From IMG/VR virus record IMGVR_UViG_3300006950_000002, positions 1 to 36,136 of that record: a stretch of 36,136 nucleotides of DNA. The stretch is one strand, 5' to 3'. The position numbers were made by a program, and so were the translations under genes. The notes under the pieces were generated by a model that searched no databases, was not told where the DNA came from, and saw nothing but the letters and a program-made list of their open reading frames with translations. Of the stretch, positions 3,046-19,387 are shown piece after piece; the first letter of the stretch is position 1; each line of letters opens with the position of its first letter. This DNA comes from a virus.

Positions 3046-3510
3046 ATGAAAAGAACAATAATAGCTAAAGGAAATACATATCAAATAAAAGAACAATTGA
3101 AAGCATTGGGTGCAAAATGGGACGGAAGTGATTGGACGCTTGAAACTATGCCAGCAGAAGAAATAGAAGGTGTAACATTCAAAATAATATTCAATCCAAG
3201 TTCTCTAACTGACATAAGCGGAATATCGGAAGCAGTAGAGGAATTAAGAAAAATATTTTTACCGAAAGCAATAAAAAGAATAAATGAACTAATAGAATTA
3301 AACGAAAGCAGAAAAACATTTGAAGAAATGAAACAAGATGAGTATTCAGGGCAGCACTTATTTTTTAAGCAGTATGCAGCAGAAAGTTTTATCGTAGATA
3401 GACAAGATTTTGAAAATGGAAGAGCGTGCAGAGAATTTAGAAATGAATTTAAGGTTGAATTAGAAAAAGAACTAGATAGAGTTGGAACAGTTGAAAATTT
3501 CTGGAAATAA
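3046..3510 (+). CDS. Hypothetical protein, first gene of lysin-integrase operon
   Basis: This 154-residue protein of unknown role follows a strong ribosome binding site (AATCGGAGG). Residues 9-35 (TYQIKEQLKALGAKWDGSDW) resemble the short beta-alpha element of DUF5710-like proteins, in which an ALGAKWD motif is typical; this is a weak resemblance. Residues 60-154 are helical and strongly charged, with alternating K/E runs and no membrane segment. It is the lead gene of a promoter-to-terminator unit placed between endolysin and integrase, apart from lytic functions, so it could be expressed in the lysogen. A host-interaction or anti-defence role is an inference from position and operon form only. 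Confidence 0.75.
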   Translation: MKRTIIAKGNTYQIKEQLKALGAKWDGSDWTLETMPAEEIEGVTFKIIFNPSSLTDISGISEAVEELRKIFLPKAIKRINELIELNESRKTFEEMKQDEYSGQHLFFKQYAAESFIVDRQDFENGRACREFRNEFKVELEKELDRVGTVENFWK

Positions 3511-3559
3511 AAAATAAGGTTAGCGGTAATCCTAAAAACTGCATAGGAGAGTATAAAAA

Positions 3560-3787
3560 ATGAAAAAAATGATTGATTTACAAAACGGATTTGCATTTAT
3601 CGAAGGAGATTACGTCAAAGAACTTGAAACTGATGATACACAGTTGACTACATTGAATATTATTAATTCCGATATTGAATCCTACGATGAAGTTGGAGTG
3701 TATTTTACAATTGCAGAAAATATGGAAGTTTATATTCAAAATGTTGGAGGCGAAAGGGAATATTTTGAACTCTCTACAGAAATGTAA
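3560..3787 (+). CDS. Small acidic hypothetical protein
   Basis: This 75-residue protein starts at an ATG preceded by AGGAGAG. It is strongly acidic (DETDD near residues 21-27, further D and E throughout, very few basic residues) and alternates predicted strands and turns, with no membrane segment or known motif. Small, acidic, orphan proteins in a cassette ending with a small HTH gene are typical of anti-CRISPR and other inhibitor loci, so this gene is the best single candidate inhibitor here, but the sequence alone does not prove it. It is spaced 49 bases from the gene before and 62 from the gene after, so it is probably on the same transcript. Confidence 0.75.
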   Translation: MKKMIDLQNGFAFIEGDYVKELETDDTQLTTLNIINSDIESYDEVGVYFTIAENMEVYIQNVGGEREYFELSTEM

Positions 3788-3849
3788 AAATAATTTGTAA
3801 TTAGTATATTAAAATAAATCGGAAAGTTTCGAAAAAGGAAATGATGAAA

Positions 3850-4032
3850 ATGAACTTACGTAAAATAAGATTAGAGCAGGGCTTGACGGTACCTGCTCTA
3901 TCAAAAAAATCAAAAGTGCCTGTACGGACTATAGAAAACATAGAAAGAAATAACGAGTGTAAAGTAAGTACTGCGGTAAAATTAGCAAATGCTTTAAAAG
4001 TTAACATGGATAAATTATGTAAAGGAGAGTAA
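3850..4032 (+). CDS. Small XRE-type helix-turn-helix regulator (Aca-like position)
   Basis: This 60-residue protein consists of a single HTH_3/XRE domain: MNLRKIRLEQGLTVPALSKK, then the recognition helix region KVPVRTIENIERNN, then helices ending LKVNMDKLC. There is no effector or dimerisation extension. The ATG at 3850 is ten bases after AAAGGA; two ATGs at 3841 and 3844 are too close to it. Third in a four-gene operon whose promoter contains a palindrome, it is likely an autorepressor, as Aca proteins are in anti-CRISPR operons. It is separate from the CI/Cro pair at 7.3-8.1 kb. It overlaps nothing, and its stop is 2 bases before the next start. Confidence 0.85.
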   Translation: MNLRKIRLEQGLTVPALSKKSKVPVRTIENIERNNECKVSTAVKLANALKVNMDKLCKGE

Positions 4033-4034
4033 AT

Positions 4035-4217
4035 ATGAAAGATTTATTAAGCAAAATAAGTGATTCTAAAACTTTAGATGAAGCAAGAAAACATATGAAT
4101 GATGCAGTTGTAAATGTAAATCGAAATTGGATAGGCAGAAAGGATCATGAAGAACGAATGAATTTAATTAACATAGCGTACGTTGCCAAAAAGAAAGAGT
4201 TAAGCCAGGATGATTAG
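4035..4217 (+). CDS. Small hypothetical protein, last gene of lysin-integrase operon
   Basis: This 60-residue, mostly helical, charged protein (KISDSKTLDEARKHMNDAV then RKDHEERMNLINIAYVAKKK) has an AAAGGAG site inside the end of the HTH gene, so the two are translationally coupled. The stop codon lies in the loop of the operon terminator. No family is recognised. Coupling to a regulator suggests a cofactor or a second inhibitor-type gene, but this is conjecture. Confidence 0.7.
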   Translation: MKDLLSKISDSKTLDEARKHMNDAVVNVNRNWIGRKDHEERMNLINIAYVAKKKELSQDD

Positions 4218-4232
4218 TCCTGGTCTTTTTAT
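4205..4232 (+). terminator. Terminator of small-gene operon
   Basis: The stem CCAGGA/TCCTGG (4206-4211 and 4219-4224) encloses the last stop codon and is followed by TCTTTTTATTTT. A second hairpin, AAGGAACT (4242-4249) against AGTTCCTT (4262-4269), follows at once and may serve as a back-up or work in the opposite direction, insulating the attP/integrase side. Confidence 0.85.
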
Positions 4233-4537
4233 TTTAGCTATAAGGAACTGCCATAATCGATAGTTCCTTTATTCTTTATTTTATGTTATAATGTTTTATG
4301 AATGTTGTCAGATTGTTGTCAGTAATAATTAAGATGTTGAAAAATCAACGTATGACGTAATTTAAAAAAATCCAAATGGTTATTGTCATATAGATTTATC
4401 CTAGTGTTGATATGTGTTAAAATATATAAGAATTGTATTTTTTTTGTTTAAAAATCAACGTGATTTTATCTTTTCTATATTATCATTTTTATATAGATTT
4501 ATCAGTATTATGTTGTCAAAATGTTGTCAAAATGTTG
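4218..4537. other. attP region (phage attachment site) with integrase arm-type repeats
   Basis: This 320-bp gene-free stretch next to the integrase 3' end is where attP is expected. It holds five copies of TGTTGTCA: two on the left (4303, 4314) and three on the right (4511, 4522, 4533), each group spaced exactly 11 bp, one DNA turn. These look like arm-type integrase sites. The last copy overlaps the integrase stop codon. Between them are two further direct repeat pairs: AAAAATCAACGT at 4340 and 4450, and ATATAGATTTATC at 4388 and 4491. A GTTGA-N4-TCAAC palindrome lies at 4336-4349. The crossover core is inside this interval but cannot be fixed without a host attB. Confidence 0.8.
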
Positions 4538-4540
4538 TCA
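4303..4540 (+). repeat. Five TGTTGTCA repeats in 2 + 3 phased clusters
   Basis: Copies are at 4303-4310, 4314-4321, 4511-4518, 4522-4529 and 4533-4540, all in the same orientation. The right-hand units extend to ATGTTGTCAAA. Helical phasing on both flanks of a roughly 190-bp core region is the classic layout of integrase arm sites. Confidence 0.9.
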
Positions 4541-5587
4541 AATAGTTTTTAAATATTCTTCAATTTTATCCGTTGCAGTTATTTTATTTTGCTCGTTTAA
4601 ATGAGTATATATATCCATTGTTGTGTTAAAGTTTGCATGTCCTAACCACTCCTGAGTCTGTTTAATATCTACGCCTGCATTATATAAGATTGTTGCAAAT
4701 GTATGTCGGCATTGGTGGAACGTAAATTTAAAGCCACATAATTTATTGTATTTATATCTTTGCTTGCTTAAAGTATTTGCATTTAATTGTTTACCATTAT
4801 TTAAAAAAACAAAATCTTTGTCTGTGTCAATATTTTTAATTCTATTAACGCTAAATTTTTTTAATATCTCATTAGTGGGTTCTAAAATAGGAACAGTTCT
4901 GTTGCTATTAAGTGTTTTAACATCCCCATTGATATAAATTTTTTTAGCTTTTAAATCTACATTTTGCCACGTTAAGTTAATTAACTCGCTTATTCTTAAA
5001 CCGCTATAAATCAAAAATACGCAAAGACTTTGTAGTTCATGACTAGTTGCTTTGATAATATTGATTTGTTCGCTATTCAGCGGTTTCTTTGGCTCTGTTT
5101 GGAATTTGGGTGCTATTAAAGTCTTAACAATATTTTTAGATATAAAATCATTATCAACAGCACTATCTAAAATTTTATTAAGTGTTATTAAAAATCTTCT
5201 AGGTACGCTGCCTGCTTCAATTTCATTTAGCACTTTTTGCACTTGATACTGCTTTAAGTCCTTTAACCTTATACTTTTAAAATTGTAGTTAATATATTTA
5301 TTAATCATCTTTCTGTGGTTGTTAGTGGTACTCTGTTTAAAATTTGTAGTATATATTTGTAACCATTCATCGGCCCACGCATCAACGGTTTTATTTTTAT
5401 CATCAATAATTGTGCCTCTATCTTTTTGCAGTAATAAAACAGCAATTTTTAAATTTAATTCAGGTTGTGTATTTGCATAAACCATTTTACGCTTAAGACT
5501 TCCATCTTTGTTACGACCGATTGTTATATTTTTACACAGTCGACCATCTTCTCGCTCATGTTTCCTTTTCTTCTTTTCTTTAGCCAT
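4538..5587 (-). CDS. int: Tyrosine recombinase, phage integrase
   Basis: This 349-residue site-specific recombinase inserts the phage into the host chromosome. The N-terminal basic region (1-35) resembles an AP2-like arm-binding domain, residues 65-160 form a SAM-like core-binding domain, and 165-349 the catalytic domain. Catalytic residues are visible: R198 (IYSGLRISEL), a candidate hairpin lysine at K224, H291 and R294 (FHQCRHTFA), H317 (WLGHANF) and nucleophile Y327 (MDIYTH). I chose the ATG at 5587, which has AAAGGA at proper spacing, over the first in-frame ATG 12 codons upstream. It is adjacent to attP and reads away from the lysogeny genes in the same direction as the repressor. Size and motifs match Tn916/phage integrases of Firmicutes. 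Confidence 0.96.
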   Translation of the reverse strand: MAKEKKKRKHEREDGRLCKNITIGRNKDGSLKRKMVYANTQPELNLKIAVLLLQKDRGTIIDDKNKTVDAWADEWLQIYTTNFKQSTTNNHRKMINKYINYNFKSIRLKDLKQYQVQKVLNEIEAGSVPRRFLITLNKILDSAVDNDFISKNIVKTLIAPKFQTEPKKPLNSEQINIIKATSHELQSLCVFLIYSGLRISELINLTWQNVDLKAKKIYINGDVKTLNSNRTVPILEPTNEILKKFSVNRIKNIDTDKDFVFLNNGKQLNANTLSKQRYKYNKLCGFKFTFHQCRHTFATILYNAGVDIKQTQEWLGHANFNTTMDIYTHLNEQNKITATDKIEEYLKTI

Positions 5588-5627
5588 GTCGTTATCCTTT
5601 CTATTTGTGTTTTTTCGTTGCAAATAT

Positions 5628-5673
5628 AAGGATTAAATGCTTTAATATAGATGTTGGAGCGCATTTAATCCTT
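5628..5673. repeat. Perfect 13-bp inverted repeat upstream of integrase
   Basis: AAGGATTAAATGC (5628-5640) and GCATTTAATCCTT (5661-5673) are exact reverse complements around a 20-base loop, ending 41 bp before the integrase start. No long T run follows on either strand. It may be a protein-binding dyad controlling integrase, or a leader hairpin in the transcript from the upstream lysogeny genes. Confidence 0.8.
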
Positions 5674-5736: not shown

Positions 5737-6816
5737 TTATATAATAGATTTAGCTCTTTCTGTTAAATTTTTGGATAATTTATAAATATCATCCAAAGTA
5801 TCTATTTGGTACTTAATATTTTCTTTTGATTCATTAGGAATTATTATATATTTTATATTATCCTTTAAAAAAATTCTGCATAACCAACGTGTAACTTTAT
5901 TATCTACAAGTATTCCAAAGTAAGATAGTGTATCTTTATGAAATAATCTTGATGGATTGATTGTCTCTCTTAAAATAGATTTAACAATATAGTATGATTC
6001 AAGTTCATCATCTGTCGTATTAATTTTATCTATAAAATCATCAGGTTTAAATTCACTTGTAGTTGCAATAATTTCAGGAGATGAATTTTCAATTTCATTT
6101 TCATCATTTTTTAAAGCTGTTTGTATTCTGTCATTTACTAAATCATTAATGTAACCAATTAATGATTTTTTTAATATGGGTTTGTATCTATCAATAACAT
6201 TTTGAGTTTTTACGCCATCATATACACCACATGCCAGTATAAGTCTTACGAATTCATCTGATGGATTCGTAAATTCTTCTTTTATAACATTCCGCATTAA
6301 TCCAATATATTTTAATTCCGATGCGGTATCAATGATTTGATTTAAATCAAAATTATCTTTATGAAATTTTTTTAGTTCAGGGATTTGAGCATCTTTCAAC
6401 TCTAACATATTAATTTCTAAGAATGGCTTTTCATCCATCTTATTTGGTTCCTCCAGATCTGTATAAAATCTGTAGATAATACCATTTGTTAAAATAGCAA
6501 ACTTTGCTTTTGTCGTTCCAAAATATCTGAATAATTGTGAATCATGTTTAGTTAACTCTTCGTTTATAGACTTACATTCAATCAGTATAACGGGTTCCAT
6601 ATTATTAAGAATTGCATAGTCTACCTTTTCACCTTTTTTAATACCTACATCGGCAGTATATTCTGGAGTAAATTCGGTTGGGTTAAAAACATCATACCCG
6701 AGTATTTGGAAAAAAGGCATAATAATTGAAGTCTTTGTAGCTTCTTCTGTAGTGATTCCACTCATTATAGATTTAGTTCTTTTAGCAAAACTTTTAATCT
6801 GTTCTTCAAAATTCAT
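5737..6816 (-). CDS. HsdR N-terminal-like (PD-(D/E)XK) nuclease domain protein, possible superinfection defence gene
   Basis: The 359-residue product has an N-terminal domain like that of type I restriction HsdR subunits (COG4748-type proteins). It contains TEEATKTSIIMPFFQILGYD, the nuclease core D66 (KVDYAI), E80 and K82 (VILIECK), and the following QLFRYF (94-99), which resembles the Q-x3-Y motif of that family. E24 or E25 could be the first acidic residue. There is no helicase domain; the rest (150-359) has helical and mixed segments ending in a beta-rich region (RLFHKDTLSYFGILVDNKV onward). The ATG at 6816 follows GGAGGGAATATT. It sits between integrase and ImmA/repressor, a common place for lysogen-expressed defence genes. 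A role in excluding other phages is inferred; a solitary nuclease without partners could also act in recombination. Confidence 0.75.
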   Translation of the reverse strand: MNFEEQIKSFAKRTKSIMSGITTEEATKTSIIMPFFQILGYDVFNPTEFTPEYTADVGIKKGEKVDYAILNNMEPVILIECKSINEELTKHDSQLFRYFGTTKAKFAILTNGIIYRFYTDLEEPNKMDEKPFLEINMLELKDAQIPELKKFHKDNFDLNQIIDTASELKYIGLMRNVIKEEFTNPSDEFVRLILACGVYDGVKTQNVIDRYKPILKKSLIGYINDLVNDRIQTALKNDENEIENSSPEIIATTSEFKPDDFIDKINTTDDELESYYIVKSILRETINPSRLFHKDTLSYFGILVDNKVTRWLCRIFLKDNIKYIIIPNESKENIKYQIDTLDDIYKLSKNLTERAKSII

Positions 6817-6838: not shown

Positions 6839-7303
6839 TTAGTTGTAGCTGTATTTACATACAGTCAGTGGAGAAAAATAAATGCAATAATCTCCAACCT
6901 CTGTAAACAATCCATATTTACTTTCATAATGCTGTAATGTATCTTTTAAAAACTCTTCTGTAACATCTAGGTATTCAGCAAGTTCAAATAAATTCGTACA
7001 TCTTTCACTAGAGGCTTCAATTAAGGTTTTAAGAGGTACAAGCTTTTCATACGACCAATTACGCGCTTTTAGTTCTTGCTTTTGATTACAAACGTTTTTC
7101 ACGTCTATAATATCACCTGATGTAGTATAGTAATGTCCTAATTCTTCTGCTAGGACACATTTCTTTTCTGTAGTTGTTTCTATTTTAGGATTCATAGTAA
7201 TGGTTCCATCTGAATACAGTCCTTCAACACCGCTCTTAAAAGTGAATTCAATTATCTCTATATCTTCATCTTCTGCAATTTTAGCTAATTGTTCATACGT
7301 CAT
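6839..7303 (-). CDS. ImmA/IrrE-family protein (M78-like) with altered zinc motif
   Basis: This 154-residue protein pairs with the repressor gene next to it. ImmA-type proteins are metallopeptidases that cut or inactivate ImmR-like repressors on induction. The family core is at 50-70 (VLAEELGHYYTTSGDIID). The usual HExxH reads AEELGH here, so the first His is Ala52 while E53 and H57 remain; this variant is seen in many phage relatives. The following KQELKARNWSYEKLVP segment (75-90) and a helical region with an HTH-like helix pair (95-125) match the family. I chose the ATG at 7303, which has GGTGGGGG upstream, over the TTG at 7321, which lies in that site. It may be a partner binding the repressor rather than an active protease. 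Confidence 0.82.
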   Translation of the reverse strand: MTYEQLAKIAEDEDIEIIEFTFKSGVEGLYSDGTITMNPKIETTTEKKCVLAEELGHYYTTSGDIIDVKNVCNQKQELKARNWSYEKLVPLKTLIEASSERCTNLFELAEYLDVTEEFLKDTLQHYESKYGLFTEVGDYCIYFSPLTVCKYSYN

Positions 7304-7335
7304 ATCTATATCCCCCACCAATATACATAATCTGC

Positions 7336-7674
7336 TTAATTTATTTTTTTGCTTTTTCTTTTGTTTAAAACATATTTTTTAAAGTTTTCGATATCTTCTA
7401 ATTCATCTTCTGTCCATTCATCTCCATCATGGTGAGCTGCTATAGTGTACACTTCTTGTTTTTCTTCAGTAATTTTATCATCAACTAAAAAGTCTAGGCT
7501 ACAATTAAAATATTCCGCTAACTTTTTCAGAGTAGATAATTTAATATTTTCAGTTCCTTTCTTGTAAAATCCATCTATCGTAGTATAAGGAATTCCAGTT
7601 TCTTTTGATAGCTGATTAATGTTTTCTATATTCTTTTTTCTCATTAATGTTTCGAGTTTATTTAAAAATGTCAT
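7336..7674 (-). CDS. CI-like/ImmR-like XRE repressor
   Basis: This 112-residue protein has an N-terminal HTH_3 domain (residues 4-65; helices around NINQLSKETGIPYTTIDGFY and the conserved KLAEYFNCSLDFLVD end). A short tail with YTIAAHHDGDEWTEDELEDI, common in clostridial phage repressors, follows and may serve in dimerisation or contact with ImmA. There is no LexA-type peptidase domain, so induction probably depends on the ImmA-like neighbour. The ATG at 7674 is set by GGAGGT seven bases upstream; the longer frame to 7719 would begin inside its own promoter (7715-7743). It should bind the TTAC-N8-GTAA operators at 7752-7828 and repress the early promoter. Confidence 0.92.
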   Translation of the reverse strand: MTFLNKLETLMRKKNIENINQLSKETGIPYTTIDGFYKKGTENIKLSTLKKLAEYFNCSLDFLVDDKITEEKQEVYTIAAHHDGDEWTEDELEDIENFKKYVLNKRKSKKIN

Positions 7675-7714
7675 TTCTAAGACCTCCAACAAATTTAATA
7701 ATTCTTTAATTAGT

Positions 7715-7743
7715 ATCATATACCAAATATTATACGTTGTAAA
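7715..7743 (-). promoter_or_regulatory. Repressor (maintenance) promoter
   Basis: On the minus strand TTTACA (7743-7738) and TATGAT (7720-7715) are 17 bp apart. Transcription would start near 7708, 34 bases before the repressor ATG, and continue through ImmA, the nuclease-like gene and possibly integrase. Operator O3 (7752-7767) lies just upstream of its -35 box, a position suited to autoregulation. Confidence 0.75.
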
Positions 7744-7751
7744 GAAATATT

Positions 7752-7828
7752 TTACCTTTTAACGTAAAAAAGTATTGACAACTTACTATGCAGGGTATAC
7801 AATAAAGAAAAGTTACCCCGCAGGGTAA
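7752..7828. promoter_or_regulatory. Three 16-bp operators of the lysogeny switch
   Basis: Sites share the form TTAC-N8-GTAA. O3 is 7752-7767 (centre CTTTTAAC), O1 is 7783-7798 (TATGCAGG, last half-site GTAT) and O2 is 7813-7828 (CCCGCAGG, a near-perfect palindrome). Centres are about 31 and 30 bp apart, close to three helical turns, so bound dimers could touch. O1 covers the spacer and -10 start of the early promoter and O2 its downstream edge. Confidence 0.8.
7775..7803 (+). promoter_or_regulatory. Early lytic promoter
   Basis: TTGACA (7775-7780), a 17-bp spacer and TACAAT (7798-7803) make a strong sigma-A promoter, divergent from the repressor promoter. It is overlapped by operator O1 and followed by O2, as expected for a PR-like promoter. 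It should drive the Cro-like gene at 7846 and the early genes beyond. Confidence 0.88.
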
Positions 7829-7845: not shown

Positions 7846-8061
7846 ATGTTTATAAATTTAAAAATTGAAATGATGAAAAAGGGGATTACCGTAAAGGCTT
7901 TATCTGAAAAGATAGGTGTTTCAAGTAAAACTTATTCAAATAAAATGAATGGTTCTTCTGAATTCACAAGAAAGGAGATGTATACAATTAGAGATGAATT
8001 TTTTCCAGATAAATCTATTGAATATCTTTTTACTTTAGATAGCGGTCAAAAAACAGCTTAA
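7846..8061 (+). CDS. Cro-like helix-turn-helix protein
   Basis: This 71-residue DNA-binding protein is the first gene of the early operon. Residues 4-60 form a compact XRE/Cro-type HTH (MMKKGITVKALSEKIGVSSK, then TYSNKMNGSSEFTRKEMYTI, then FFPDKSIEYLF). The ATG follows AGAGGTGATTAA. Divergent to the repressor across shared operators, it probably competes with it and favours lytic growth. The FFPDKSIEYLF ending is typical of Firmicute phage Cro-type proteins. Confidence 0.88.
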   Translation: MFINLKIEMMKKGITVKALSEKIGVSSKTYSNKMNGSSEFTRKEMYTIRDEFFPDKSIEYLFTLDSGQKTA

Positions 8062-8274: not shown

Positions 8275-8526
8275 CTATTTAGATTCTATAAACGATAAGC
8301 CATAGTATGTGATACGGATATTTGTTTCTTGAAAATGCGGCTTGCCATTCATTGTGCGTTGATATGATACGCCACTTAAATATCCTCTATCAATACACTC
8401 AGTTAACGCTTCGTCAAAGTCAGCTTCTTGTAAAGTAGTTGTTAGGGCATCCAATTTTTCACCGTCACGAAGCTTGATTAGAGTCTCTTTAACAGCAGAA
8501 TCAAATTCTTTAGTTGATTTAAACAT
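8275..8526 (-). CDS. YjcQ-like winged-helix protein on the opposite strand
   Basis: This 83-residue protein is predicted to be a small winged helix: a helix (FDSAVKETLIKLRDGEKLD), a second helix pair (FDEALTECIDRGYLSGV), then a beta wing (NIRITYYGLSFIESK). The ILxxGYLxG...ITxxGLxYLE layout resembles YjcQ-type phage proteins. The ATG at 8526 is nine bases from AAAGGAG; upstream in-frame starts lie inside or before its promoter. It has its own promoter (8577-8605) and a palindrome at the expected transcription start, so it is probably self-regulated. It is the only gene in the early region facing backwards, so it may modulate early transcription or lysogeny. Confidence 0.72.
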   Translation of the reverse strand: MFKSTKEFDSAVKETLIKLRDGEKLDALTTTLQEADFDEALTECIDRGYLSGVSYQRTMNGKPHFQETNIRITYYGLSFIESK

Positions 8527-8551
8527 ATGCATTGTCTCCTTTCGTATTATT

Positions 8552-8569
8552 TCAGAATGGCAGTTCTGA
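8552..8569. promoter_or_regulatory. Operator palindrome TCAGAA-N6-TTCTGA
   Basis: A perfect dyad (8552-8557 with 8564-8569) lies at the start point of the minus-strand promoter and upstream of the YjcQ-like gene. It differs from the TTAC-N8-GTAA sites, so it is probably read by another protein, perhaps the winged-helix product itself. Confidence 0.65.
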
Positions 8570-8576
8570 TAATTAT

Positions 8577-8605
8577 ATTGTAGGAGATATGTGGAAAAAA
8601 TGCAA
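8577..8605 (-). promoter_or_regulatory. Promoter of the YjcQ-like gene
   Basis: On the minus strand TTGCAT (8605-8600) and TACAAT (8582-8577) are exactly 17 bp apart. The transcript would start near 8570, inside the palindrome. This promoter faces into the early operon. Confidence 0.75.
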
Positions 8606-8638
8606 CATAAATACAAAAAATAAGAAAAGAGGCATAGC

Positions 8639-8827
8639 ATGGCAAAAGAAAAACTGCAAGAGAATTGGGTAACGATTCCAAAATTTATTGAGTATTACGA
8701 TTTAAGCATTGCATTAGCTTACAGATTAATACACGCTAAAGGATTTCCAAGTCAAAGGGTTAGTAAGAGGGCATATAGAGTAGATTTAAACAAAACAGAC
8801 GAATATTTTAATAAAAATTTTAACTAA
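8639..8827 (+). CDS. Excisionase-like HTH protein
   Basis: This 62-residue protein has a MerR/HTH_17-type DNA-binding fold: WVTIPKFIEYYDLSIALAYR, then a wing with the basic segment SQRVSKRAYRVDLNK and a short closing helix. This is the usual form of small excisionases and of helix-turn-helix proteins in early operons. The ATG at 8639 follows AAGAGG. It lies just before the antirepressor, far from int in gene order, so an excisionase role is possible but another regulatory role is equally likely. Confidence 0.7.
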   Translation: MAKEKLQENWVTIPKFIEYYDLSIALAYRLIHAKGFPSQRVSKRAYRVDLNKTDEYFNKNFN

Positions 8828-8838
8828 GGAGAAAAATT

Positions 8839-9588
8839 ATGAATGAATTAAAAATATTTAAAAATGAAGAATTTGGACAAGTAAGAGTTTTAGAAAAAGA
8901 TGGAGAACCATGGTTTGTGGCAAAAGATGCATGTGATATTTTAGAAATTAAAAACACTACAGATGCAGTTAAAAGATTAGATGTAGATGAGGTGACTAGA
9001 TTCAATCTAGGGAGCTTATCGGGAGAAACTAATTTGGTAAACGAATATGGTTTATACTCATTGATTTTAGGTAGCAGAAAACAAGAAGCGAAAAACTTTA
9101 AAAGATGGATTACACACGAAGTTATACCGTCTATTAGAAAAAGTGGAGGGTACATAGCAAATCAAGAAAATTTAACTCCAGAACAAATAATGGCCAATGC
9201 TGTAATAGTAGCACAGAACATTATTAAACAAAAGGACAAACTGTTAGACGAACAAAGACCTAAAGTAATATTTGCAGATGCGGTATCGGTATCTCATACA
9301 GATATATTGGTTGGGGACCTTGCAAAACTATTAAAGCAAAATGGAATTGAGGTAGGAGCTAATAGGCTATTTGCTTGGATGCGTAATAACAAATATTTAA
9401 TTAGCAGGAATGGAACTGATTACAATATGCCATCTCAAAAGAGCATGGAGCTAGAACTTTATAGGGTAAAGGAAACAACTATAATGCATCCAGACGGACA
9501 TACGAGTATTAACAAAACTCCAAAGGTTACAGGAAAAGGACAACAGTATTTTATAAATAAATTTTTAGATAAATATGAGACAAGCTAA
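8839..9588 (+). CDS. Phage antirepressor (BRO-N plus KilAC/ANT)
   Basis: This 249-residue protein combines an N-terminal BRO-N domain (residues 1-100: VRVLEKDGEPWFVAKDACDI, then LVNEYGLYSLILGSRK, then FKRWITHEVIPSIRKSGGYI) with a C-terminal ANT/KilAC domain (about 130-249: DILVGDLAKLLKQNGIEVG, then RLFAWMRNNKYLISRNGTDY, then TPKVTGKGQQYF). Such proteins bind DNA or repressor and promote the lytic cycle. The first ATG follows AAGGAG. It is tightly spaced after the HTH gene and overlaps the next ORF by one base (TAATG). Confidence 0.95.
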   Translation: MNELKIFKNEEFGQVRVLEKDGEPWFVAKDACDILEIKNTTDAVKRLDVDEVTRFNLGSLSGETNLVNEYGLYSLILGSRKQEAKNFKRWITHEVIPSIRKSGGYIANQENLTPEQIMANAVIVAQNIIKQKDKLLDEQRPKVIFADAVSVSHTDILVGDLAKLLKQNGIEVGANRLFAWMRNNKYLISRNGTDYNMPSQKSMELELYRVKETTIMHPDGHTSINKTPKVTGKGQQYFINKFLDKYETS

Positions 9589-15557: not shown

Positions 15558-16367
15558 ATGGAACTATACCATGATCACTTTCAAAATTACAAAAAGCAAA
15601 ATATTCCAAAAGCACAACTAATAATTGCTGATATACCATATAACATTGGCATAAATGCCTACGCCTCCAATCCAAGTTGGTATAAAGACGGTGATAATAA
15701 AAACGGTGAAAGCAATCTAGCAAAGACAACTTTTTTCGACACAGACAATGATTTTAAAATTCCAGAATTTATGCATTTCGTGAGTACAATGTTAAAAAAA
15801 GAACCAAAAAAAACAGGTCAAGCAGGTTGTATGATTGTATTTTGTGAGTTTGAACAACAATTCATGTTGATAGAAAAAGCCAAGGAATACGGTTTTAATC
15901 ATTACATAAATCTTGTATTCAGAAAGAATTATTCAGCGCAGGTATTAAAAGCAAATATGAAAATTGTCGGAAATTGTGAATATGCAGTGCTTTTATACAG
16001 AGAAAAATTACCTAAATTCAACAATGAAAGAAAAATGATATTTAATTGTATGGATTATGAAAGGGATAGCGAGACACCAAAAATACATCCTACGCAAAAA
16101 AGCATAAAAGTAATCAAAAAGCTTATATCAATATTTACAGATGTTGGAGATGTTGTAATCGACCCATGTGCAGGCAGCGGAGTAACTTTATTAGCCGCTG
16201 AAATGTTAGGGCGTAAATCATATGGCTTTGAAATTAAAAAACAATATGTTGATGATTTCAATTCTAAACTAGCAAAAAACATTCAAATATCTATGCTCCA
16301 ACAAGAATTTGAAGAGAAGAAAGCAAATAAGCTTATTCTAGGAGGCACATATGAAAAATTGTATTAA
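15558..16367 (+). CDS. DNA methyltransferase, N6-adenine/N4-cytosine type
   Basis: This 269-residue amino-methyltransferase has beta-class order, with catalytic motif IV first and the AdoMet site last. Motif IV reads ADIPYN (24-29), where DPPY is usual and Ile replaces the first Pro. HPTQKS (177-182) and the AdoMet-binding DPCAGSG (202-208), with following LLAAEMLGRKSYGFEI, are clear. It has no restriction partner nearby, so it is an orphan phage enzyme that probably protects phage DNA from host restriction or marks it for packaging or replication. The ATG follows TAGGAGGAATAA. The recognition sequence cannot be read from the protein. Confidence 0.92.
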   Translation: MELYHDHFQNYKKQNIPKAQLIIADIPYNIGINAYASNPSWYKDGDNKNGESNLAKTTFFDTDNDFKIPEFMHFVSTMLKKEPKKTGQAGCMIVFCEFEQQFMLIEKAKEYGFNHYINLVFRKNYSAQVLKANMKIVGNCEYAVLLYREKLPKFNNERKMIFNCMDYERDSETPKIHPTQKSIKVIKKLISIFTDVGDVVIDPCAGSGVTLLAAEMLGRKSYGFEIKKQYVDDFNSKLAKNIQISMLQQEFEEKKANKLILGGTYEKLY

Positions 16368-16900: not shown

Positions 16901-17256
16901 AATTAACTAATGAACAAAAAACAAAGATATTGCATGACAGTGCAATAAAATGTGATATGGGTGGACATGTTGTAATCTGTGAAAAGAAGGCTGATTTACA
17001 GACAAATGCTGAACGTATGATGGGAAATATGTCATATGTTAAAAATCCTTATAAGAATAGTTATTTATATCTAGATAGTGTAGATGCTTGTTTTTACGTA
17101 GAAAGAGAAATGGCATGCGTAACATTTGTTGCAAGTTGGATTGTAGGCAGCAAGGATTTATCAATAAGTAAAATGGAAAAAGCGATTATTTTAATAAATA
17201 AAATGCTTTTGGAAATGCAATATATGATAAATGAGTTGTTGGAGGTAGGTGAATGA
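16897..17256 (+). CDS. Hypothetical early protein
   Basis: This 119-residue protein has an N-terminal helix (LTNEQKTKILHDSAIKCD), a central part with strands (GHVVICEKKADL, SYLYLDSVDACFYV) and a long C-terminal helix (LSISKMEKAIILINKMLLEM). There is no membrane segment and no recognised family. It overlaps both neighbours by four bases (ATGA), so it is translationally coupled with YopX and the ASCH-like gene. Confidence 0.65.
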   Translation: MKLTNEQKTKILHDSAIKCDMGGHVVICEKKADLQTNAERMMGNMSYVKNPYKNSYLYLDSVDACFYVEREMACVTFVASWIVGSKDLSISKMEKAIILINKMLLEMQYMINELLEVGE

Positions 17257-17828
17257 ACAGAGAAGAATTGCTAAAAATAGCAAAGCCAATACTATTTAAT
17301 ACAAAAATGGTACAAGCAATACTTGACGGAAGAAAGAGCGTAACAAGAAGGATTGTTAAACCACACTATAAGGATGATGAATACGGATTTCGAGTTTGTA
17401 CGAACGAAGCTCGTGGTGAAAGATGGGTTGAAAAGATAAACGAAGACGGCGGAAGTATATTTTTAGATGGTACCGTAAGGTATGTAAAACCTACTTACAA
17501 AGTTGGAGATATTCTCTATGTTAGGGAAACATTTAGCAGAGATTTTAGCGGAAATATCGTATTCAAAGCAGATGATGAATTTGCTAATTACCTTTCCGAA
17601 AATTGGCGCCCCTCAATTCACATGCCAAAAGAAGCAGCAAGAATATTTCTAAAAGTAACGAATGTTAGGGTTGAACAAGTAAAGGATATTACAGAAGAAC
17701 AGGCAATAGCAGAGGGATTTATTTCAAGGAAAGAATTTATGGAAACATTTTTAAAAATATATCCTAATTGCACAGAAGAAAGTTATGTATGGGTTATAGA
17801 GTTTGAAAGGGTGGAGGTTGAAGAATGA
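17253..17828 (+). CDS. ASCH/PUA-like phage protein
   Basis: This 191-residue protein belongs to a widespread phage family. Marks are ILFNTKMVQAILDGRKSVTR followed by RIVKP (13-37), YKVGDILYVRETF (82-94), WRPSIHMPKEAARIFLKVTN (113-132) and VEQVKDITEEQAIAEGF (135-151). The overall pattern is that of an ASCH domain (a PUA-like RNA- or nucleotide-binding fold). The role in phages is not known; related domains bind RNA or act as hydrolases on modified nucleosides. It overlaps the previous gene by four bases. Confidence 0.88.
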   Translation: MNREELLKIAKPILFNTKMVQAILDGRKSVTRRIVKPHYKDDEYGFRVCTNEARGERWVEKINEDGGSIFLDGTVRYVKPTYKVGDILYVRETFSRDFSGNIVFKADDEFANYLSENWRPSIHMPKEAARIFLKVTNVRVEQVKDITEEQAIAEGFISRKEFMETFLKIYPNCTEESYVWVIEFERVEVEE

Positions 17829-17950: not shown

Positions 17951-19387
17951 ATGAGAGAACTTATAATTGATTCGTTTGCAGGTGGAGGCGGTGCCAGTAC
18001 AGGAATAGAAATGGCAATAGGACATTCGGTGGACATAGCGATTAACCATGATGAAATGGCAATAAAAATGCACGAAGTTAATCATCCTAATACAAAACAC
18101 TACATCGAGAATGTGTGGGATATAGACCCATTGCAAGCGACACAAGGACAAGCGGTAGGATTGATGTGGGCATCACCTGATTGCAAACACTTTTCAAAAG
18201 CTAAAGGTGGAAAACCAGTAGATAAAAACGTTCGAGGATTAGCCTGGGTAGTTGCTAAATGGGCGAAAGCAGTAAAGCCAAGAATAATAATACTTGAGAA
18301 TGTAGAAGAATTTCAAACGTGGGGTCCATTGATTACAGATGAAAAAGGCGACTTATATCCAGACCCAAGCAAAAAGGGACAGACGTTTCATTTATTTATT
18401 AAGGCACTAGAAAAACAAGGCTATAAAGTAGCTTTTAGAGAATTAAGGGCTTGTGATTATGGAGCACCTACAACACGTAAAAGATTTTTTATGATTGCAA
18501 GATGTGATGGTAAACAAATTATATGGCCTGAACCAACTCATGGAAATCCAGAAGGCATTGAAGTTAGATGCGGATTATTAAAACCATGGAGAACAGCAGC
18601 AGAGTGTATTGATTGGAGCATACCTTGTCCTAGTATTTTTACAAGAAAGAAACCACTGGCAGAAAATACACTTGAAAGAATAGCAAAAGGAATTAAGAAA
18701 TTTGTTCTTGAAGCTGAATCACCATTTATATTAGATGATAAAGCAATGTTCTTGCAACATTATTATACAGCTCAAGGAGAAGAAATAAGGGGAAGTAGTC
18801 TTGATGAACCAATTGCAACAATACCAACTGCAAATAGATTTGGATTAGTCACTGCCTTTATATCAAAGTATTATGCAGGTACTTATGAGGGAGCTGGGAG
18901 CAGTTTAGACGAGCCACTTCATACATTAACAACTAAGGACCATCAAGCACTTATAACGGCATTTATAAGCAGACAGTTTCATACTTCAATAGGACATAAG
19001 CTTGATAAACCTCTTGCAACATCAACAACAGTTAATAAATCGAATTTAGTAACAGCGTTTTTGTTAAAGTATTATGGCGCTGATATAGGACAAACAATTA
19101 ATAGTCCATTACATACTATTACTACAAAAGATAGATTTGGACTAGTGACAATACACGGTGAAGATTATCAGATAATTGATATAGGAATGAGAATGTTAAA
19201 ACCGCACGAATTATTCAAAGCACAGGGTTTTCCCGATGATTACATAATTGACAGAGATATCAAAGGCAATCCATACCCAACTACAGAACAGACCGCAAAG
19301 TGCGGAAATAGTGTTTGTCCTCCGCTAGCAAGAGCACTGGTTGAAGCTAATTACCAAGAAGAAAACATTGAAAATATAGCAGTTTAG
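17951..19387 (+). CDS. C5-cytosine DNA methyltransferase with repeated target-recognition segments
   Basis: This 478-residue m5C methyltransferase is without an adjacent restriction enzyme. Motif I is DSFAGGGGASTGIE (7-20). Catalytic motif IV is ASPDCKHFS, with nucleophile C78. Motif VI is ENVEE (116-120), motif VIII YGAPTTRKRFF (170-180), and motifs IX-X KCGNSVCPPLARAL (450-463). Residues 284-407, between VIII and IX where target recognition lies, are four diverged repeats of about 32-35 residues with the pattern LDEPLxTxTTKxxxxLVTAFISKYY. Such repeats suggest several recognition modules or a repetitive DNA-contact surface. It probably protects phage DNA from restriction. The ATG follows TGGAGGAATA. 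Confidence 0.95.
   Translation: MRELIIDSFAGGGGASTGIEMAIGHSVDIAINHDEMAIKMHEVNHPNTKHYIENVWDIDPLQATQGQAVGLMWASPDCKHFSKAKGGKPVDKNVRGLAWVVAKWAKAVKPRIIILENVEEFQTWGPLITDEKGDLYPDPSKKGQTFHLFIKALEKQGYKVAFRELRACDYGAPTTRKRFFMIARCDGKQIIWPEPTHGNPEGIEVRCGLLKPWRTAAECIDWSIPCPSIFTRKKPLAENTLERIAKGIKKFVLEAESPFILDDKAMFLQHYYTAQGEEIRGSSLDEPIATIPTANRFGLVTAFISKYYAGTYEGAGSSLDEPLHTLTTKDHQALITAFISRQFHTSIGHKLDKPLATSTTVNKSNLVTAFLLKYYGADIGQTINSPLHTITTKDRFGLVTIHGEDYQIIDIGMRMLKPHELFKAQGFPDDYIIDRDIKGNPYPTTEQTAKCGNSVCPPLARALVEANYQEENIENIAV

Follow-up and report, generated by a model that had tools for sequence, protein, structure and literature searches.

A solitary HsdR-N-type nuclease in a phage lysogeny operon as candidate single-gene anti-phage cargo

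Introduction

What does a restriction-type nuclease do when it is encoded alone, among the lysogeny genes of a virus? The question is raised by a 36,136-base IMG/VR virus record (IMGVR_UViG_3300006950_000002), analysed here in its entirety and referred to as the window, in which a gene encoding an HsdR-N-like protein lies between a peptidase gene and an integrase gene. HSDR_N is the nuclease domain of the type I restriction R subunit. An earlier, sequence-only reading of this DNA had raised the possibility that the protein forms a superinfection exclusion system, a term that strictly denotes a block of DNA entry. Herein, we consider the nuclease, its relatives and their neighbourhoods, and weigh the explanations that these leave standing.

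Results

The nuclease gene lies in a lysogeny operon

On the minus strand of the window, the gene order is repressor, ImmA/IrrE peptidase, nuclease and tyrosine integrase, the first three genes being separated by gaps of 14 and 22 nt. The elements of this region are as follows.

4538-5623, minus strand: tyrosine integrase, downstream end of the lysogeny module (Pfam Phage_integrase, 121.9 bits)
5628-5673: 13-nt perfect inverted repeat with a 20-nt spacer, between the nuclease and integrase genes
5737-6816, minus strand: solitary nuclease, 359 aa (HSDR_N domain, helical middle, linker, conserved C-terminal domain)
6839-7321, minus strand: ImmA/IrrE-type M78 metallopeptidase, presumed anti-repressor protease (Peptidase_M78, 41.5 bits; PHROG 87)
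7336-7719, minus strand: Cro/CI-type lysogeny repressor (Pfam HTH_26/HTH_3)
7715-7743, minus strand: candidate leftward promoter of the repressor-ImmA-nuclease operon (TTTACA-17-TATGAT)
7775-7803, plus strand: candidate rightward (lytic) promoter (TTGACA-17-TACAAT)
7783-7828: two operator-like palindromes (7783-7798, TTACTATGCAGGGTAT; 7813-7828, TTACCCCGCAGGGTAA)

The nuclease open reading frame is a real gene, with a strong ribosome-binding site (GGAGGG) just upstream of its ATG and the ImmA stop codon 22 nt before it. The true start of the repressor is likely at about 7673, after a GGAGG ribosome-binding site, and ImmA, listed with a TTG start, may instead begin at an ATG about 18 nt further in. 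The operator-like palindromes, located between the divergent repressor and cro-like genes, are the only ones that the window contains when up to 3 mismatches are allowed (mean of 0.13 expected; two found in 0/100 shuffles). Promoter-like hexamers flank them on both sides, at a frequency not above chance in this AT-rich region; co-expression of the nuclease with the repressor and ImmA in the lysogen is thus something we infer from the gene order and the 14- to 22-nt gaps. The inverted repeat at 5628-5673 is possibly a terminator or an integrase arm-binding site near attP.

The placement described by the sequence-only reading is borne out, with the repressor and ImmA upstream and the integrase downstream on the same strand, as is the solitary state of the gene: no HsdM, HsdS or helicase gene lies beside the nuclease in the window. 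The integrase yielded no relatives among viral contigs. Elsewhere in the region, a second small HTH_3 regulator (3841-4032, plus strand) sits just past the integrase, where a Cro-like gene would not usually be expected, alongside a short open reading frame (4035-4217, plus strand), and a YjcQ-like gene (8275-8640, minus strand) separates the cro-like gene (7846-8061) from the antirepressor gene (8839-9588).

An HsdR-type nuclease domain is joined to a conserved C-terminal domain

Against Pfam, the protein matches HSDR_N (PF04313) at 61.8 bits and HSDR_N_2 at 39 bits, and the PHROG 4225 "endonuclease" profile covers residues 1-357 of 359 (452 bits, 3.1e-135). Its layout, by residue, is the following.

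About 1-140: HSDR_N PD-(D/E)XK domain
141-239: helical middle
240-262: disordered linker
263-359: conserved C-terminal alpha-beta5-alpha domain of about 97 residues

The AlphaFold model of the protein has a mean pLDDT of 88. Its best Foldseek match among solved structures is the HsdR N-terminal fragment 3h1t (probability 1.0, E only 0.039), while the viral structure library contains one clearly similar protein, A0A6J5NY69, annotated as a phage "Type I restriction enzyme R protein, N-terminal domain"; a sequence search for relatives of solved structure returned none. The C-terminal domain folded alone reaches a pLDDT of 91 and has no significant fold match in the PDB by Foldseek; faint likenesses to T4 MotA-CTD (E 0.6-0.7), frataxin and YkuJ all stand at a probability of about 0.5. 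As to other architectures that might contain this domain, the weaker or short matches followed in one phylum all proved to have the HSDR_N plus C-terminal layout or to be broken copies. No SF2 helicase or translocase motor was matched by Pfam in this protein of only 359 aa, and searches of it for NTPase, Mrr_cat and GmrSD domains found none.

The active site is intact and the gene is under purifying selection

The active-site residues are E24/E25, D66, E80-x-K82 and Q94-L-F-R-Y98-F, so that D66, E80-C81-K82 and QLFRYF stand where the sequence-only reading had placed them. In an alignment of homologues, E24, E25, D66, E80, K82, Q94 and Y98 are invariant (164/164); the invariance of D66 is partly by construction, since it lies inside the peptide used to find the loci, with the other residues lying outside it. 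Decay of the active site in relatives, named beforehand as a sign against a defence role, was not seen. Invariant polar residues also mark the C-terminal domain, namely E271 and R314 (both 164/164) and Y299 (162/164). Residue 81 (window position about 6574), between the catalytic E and K, is split near-evenly between C (81/164) and A (79/164).

Pairwise against the nearest relatives, with synonymous sites near saturation, dN/dS is about 0.06-0.14 overall and 0.01-0.06 in the nuclease domain, a conservation unusually high for an arms-race protein. A few cellular copies of the family are broken. The gene in the window is functional and not decayed.

The nuclease belongs to a widespread, patchily distributed family

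Judged by its sequence, the nuclease is an ordinary member of PHROG 4225, a widespread uncharacterised family. It is 31-68% identical to annotated phage copies and about 45% identical to the E. coli copy. Members occur in 18 phage records, 59 plasmid-collection records and at least 374 viral contigs, and cellular genomes contain the gene at 570 or more sites. Presence is patchy (13/299 and 25/198 genomes in two phyla, with one copy per genome where present); in E. coli, where protein WP_000061477.1 of 359 aa is the homologue, the gene is found in 186/5426 complete genomes. From annotation and two papers, the family most likely corresponds to the COG4748 group, which has been listed among the restriction endonucleases of Tn7 cargo (PMC8649781) and as a "restriction endonuclease" elsewhere (PMC12429752).

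Among open-licence papers, we found no published experiments on the family, anti-phage assays included. In a comparison of C. jejuni strains, an HsdR N-terminal-domain protein is listed in a phage-resistant strain (PMC8713573). PADLOC-DB 2.0.0 holds no real match to the nuclease, the best being partial at 18.2 bits.

Homologues occupy lysogeny modules in viruses and ordinary loci in chromosomes

Across 80 viral homologue loci, a same-strand HTH regulator lies at most 3 genes upstream in 68 and a recombinase at most 5 genes downstream in 63; 60 combine an upstream repressor or ImmA with a downstream recombinase, and only 6 have none of these. Where the upstream neighbour is a repressor or ImmA, the gap is below 60 nt in 35/59 loci. 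The same gene order recurs in named phages of Fusobacterium, Enterococcus, Streptococcus, Acetoanaerobium and Terrisporobacter. In Corynebacterium phage Juicebox, the order is repressor, nuclease, peptidase, and in Porphyromonas phages the nuclease follows hicAB in the structural region, outside the lysogeny module.

Of the 80 loci from cellular genomes, lysogeny modules account for 26, and 42 lack all of the marker genes just named. The family is not phage-specific, about half of its cellular members lying outside prophages. Chromosomal copies have no consistent partner or defence neighbour, their surroundings being heterogeneous and mostly housekeeping. The E. coli copy lies between hicAB and aldB in 3/3 genomes inspected. 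In a quickly built tree, copies from lysogeny modules and from chromosomes are intermingled, and supported branches force the label to change 16 times or more; the gene moves between prophages and chromosomes as a stand-alone unit.

As a separate observation, hicAB is immediately beside the nuclease in two unrelated settings, i.e., the phage structural region (locus L180 of a Porphyromonas phage, 3248-5065) and the E. coli aldB locus (L217, 6908-9074; L218; L219).

The repressor-recombinase slot carries other defence genes

In 28 viral loci with a related ImmA, the nuclease is present in 0/28. A recombinase comes directly next in about ten of these; others hold PDC-S19, the SIR2-type PDC-S25, AbiD (twice), PDC-S02 and further genes, in a PADLOC scan of proteins chosen by eye. 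Because that first scan was so picked, the argument is carried by an unselected set of slot genes and its control. Genes sharing the slot with the nuclease match PADLOC models for PD-Lambda-1 (E 3e-166), PDC-S05 (2e-165), PDC-M11A, PD-Lambda-5_B, PDC-S23, PDC-S15 and AbiD (two cases), and by Pfam include Abi_2 and two Ltp lipoproteins. Counted as models and not as proteins, the slot yields 116, versus 7 (best 5.5e-31) for a control set of as many genes, taken from the opposite strand of these loci and scored at the same cut-off. The expectation that lysogeny-module positions hold anti-phage genes is supported here, and the slot is one at which defence and exclusion cargo is exchanged, comparable to the sites of lambda rexAB or GiPD474.

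Discussion

Taken together, the defence-rich slot, the placement in the lysogeny module and the swapping among relatives make it most likely that the nuclease is anti-phage cargo expressed in the lysogen and positioned like lambda rexAB. We put the probability of this reading, in which one gene suffices for an anti-phage nuclease that rides in the lysogeny module as cargo, at roughly 0.68. Counting against defence cargo are the 42/80 cellular copies that lie outside prophages among ordinary genes, the want of a PADLOC-DB match and the position of the Porphyromonas copies in a structural region.

If the nuclease is such cargo, it would be made in the lysogen from the repressor operon along with the repressor and ImmA, and its HSDR_N domain would cut DNA by metal-dependent PD-(D/E)XK chemistry, as the invariant active site suggests. 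As the protein brings along neither a methylase nor a specificity subunit nor a motor, discrimination between self and foreign DNA, or switching, would fall to the helical and C-terminal domains. The enzyme could stay inactive until infection is signalled, or it could recognise some feature of the incoming DNA (base modification, replication structure); this is the weakest step of the scheme. Cleavage would then destroy the invading genome or the infected cell. Bacteria also have the same protein as a stand-alone chromosomal gene outside any prophage. The superinfection exclusion first proposed for this gene is kept in part: the slot with its anti-phage genes and the intact active site agree with a defence role, but a nuclease in the cytoplasm would work by restriction or by abortive infection, such that strict exclusion is unlikely and intracellular attack on DNA is a better reading than a block of entry.

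Two forms of the anti-phage cargo explanation merit separate mention, each somewhat unlikely taken singly. In the first, the nuclease would perform modification-dependent (type IV-like) restriction, with the C-terminal domain binding modified bases, HSDR_N cutting, and the prophage DNA free of the mark. The want of an obligate methylase partner, the occurrence as a stand-alone single gene in many phyla, and the invariant polar residues E271, R314 and Y299 agree with such an enzyme, as does the faint likeness of its C-terminal fold to the DNA-binding MotA-CTD; that match, however, is not significant, and frataxin and YkuJ score equally. The phage's own two methylases would also pose a risk should the enzyme recognise methyl marks, except where its mark is a different one. 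In the second form, given about the same standing, a latent nuclease would be woken by an infection cue and degrade host and phage DNA alike as an abortive-infection or dormancy effector. AbiD-type, SIR2-type and other abortive genes in the same slot are in keeping with this, as are the apparent lack of self-marking and a modelled two-domain layout suggestive of effector plus sensor; yet the protein lacks an identified sensor domain, and its nuclease domain is closer to restriction subunits than to known toxins.

Alternatively, the protein could be an accessory of the lysogeny switch or of DNA repair, processing damaged DNA or tuning induction together with the repressor and ImmA. It does directly follow these two genes in many phages, and the extreme conservation of its nuclease domain would suit such a task. 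Nonetheless, we regard a lysogeny-switch role as doubtful, because the nuclease is absent where ImmA is related and occurs as a lone gene in chromosomes; plasmid and Porphyromonas phage copies likewise do without repressor or ImmA.

A further alternative is a classic restriction-modification nuclease, either joining host HsdM/HsdS or having its self DNA guarded by phage methylases. The HSDR_N domain itself favours this, as do two methylases in the window.

15558-16367, strand opposite the nuclease (lytic): N4/N6-type DNA methylase (N6_N4_Mtase)
17951-19387, strand opposite the nuclease (lytic): C5 DNA methylase (DNA_methylase)

The sequence-only reading was correct that two methyltransferases are present; the link to the nuclease that it had floated is not supported. 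In the 32 viral records above 30 kb that carry a homologue, a C5 methylase occurs in 8, an N4/N6 methylase in 7 and at least one of them in 14, leaving 18/32 devoid of both families. Over 299 genomes, HsdM is found in 9/13 with the nuclease family versus 136/286 without it, an enrichment that is not significant (p=0.16), and is missing from 4/13 nuclease-bearing genomes. An obligate methylase partnership was rejected on these counts; neither a phage methylase nor host HsdM is an obligate partner. Helicase and assembly domains are also absent from the protein, and the window's methylases, typical orphan phage methylases with no cognate nuclease seen next to them, are probably off in the lysogen. 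We therefore consider a restriction partnership very unlikely. Between the two methylases, in the early lytic region, lies an ASCH-domain protein (17253-17828).

Lastly, decay from a type I R subunit, of which only the N-terminal HsdR domain is shared, and for which a few broken cellular copies would speak, is in effect ruled out family-wide by the intact active site (164/164) and strong purifying selection, next to which stands a conserved C-terminal domain of the protein's own.

Ultimately, the genomic evidence now points one way, towards defence cargo comprising one gene with an intact active site and no methylase. The family itself was already known, and the nuclease described here is a good candidate rather than a surprise. 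The family is absent from PADLOC-DB, and its presence in E. coli makes the question directly testable in a laboratory strain. More broadly, and with somewhat less than an even chance of being right, this may be a large family of defence nucleases that each act as one protein. In these, a new type of C-terminal domain would sense infection or a modification of the DNA and so release an HsdR-type nuclease that needs neither methylase nor motor nor partner. Prophages of Bacillota, Fusobacteriota and Actinomycetota would carry the gene in the repressor-integrase slot, and Bacteroidota and E. coli would have it by itself in the chromosome. Confirmation of a defence role would add a broadly distributed weapon to those of prophages and raise the matter of what keeps a solitary restriction nuclease from harming the cell that makes it.

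Relation to known systems

With HsdR (EcoR124I; V. vulnificus, 3h1t), the protein has the N-terminal PD-(D/E)XK nuclease domain in common, whereas the helicase motor, the M/S-assembly domain and the hsdM/hsdS partners are missing and a C-terminal domain of its own is present. Agreement with PHROG 4225 is full-length with no defining difference, and the probable identity of this family with COG4748 is drawn from annotation and the two papers named above. An action independent of a methylase partner would be shared with the type IV enzymes McrBC, Mrr and GmrSD, whose NTPase, Mrr_cat or GmrSD domains the nuclease does not have. Mycobacteriophage Panchino gp28 is likewise a single phage gene, expressed in the lysogen and bearing a restriction-type nuclease domain (PMC7542560, PMC12487901), but it also possesses modification and specificity domains, neither of which occurs here. 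The repressor-integrase slot and the expected lysogen expression are those of lambda RexAB, P. putida RexABpp and Gifsy GiPD474 (PMC12894663, PMC12724215), the last a different gene in an equivalent slot that is experimentally anti-phage (PMC12724215); the proteins are unrelated, and the protection demonstrated for those systems is what we predict for this one.
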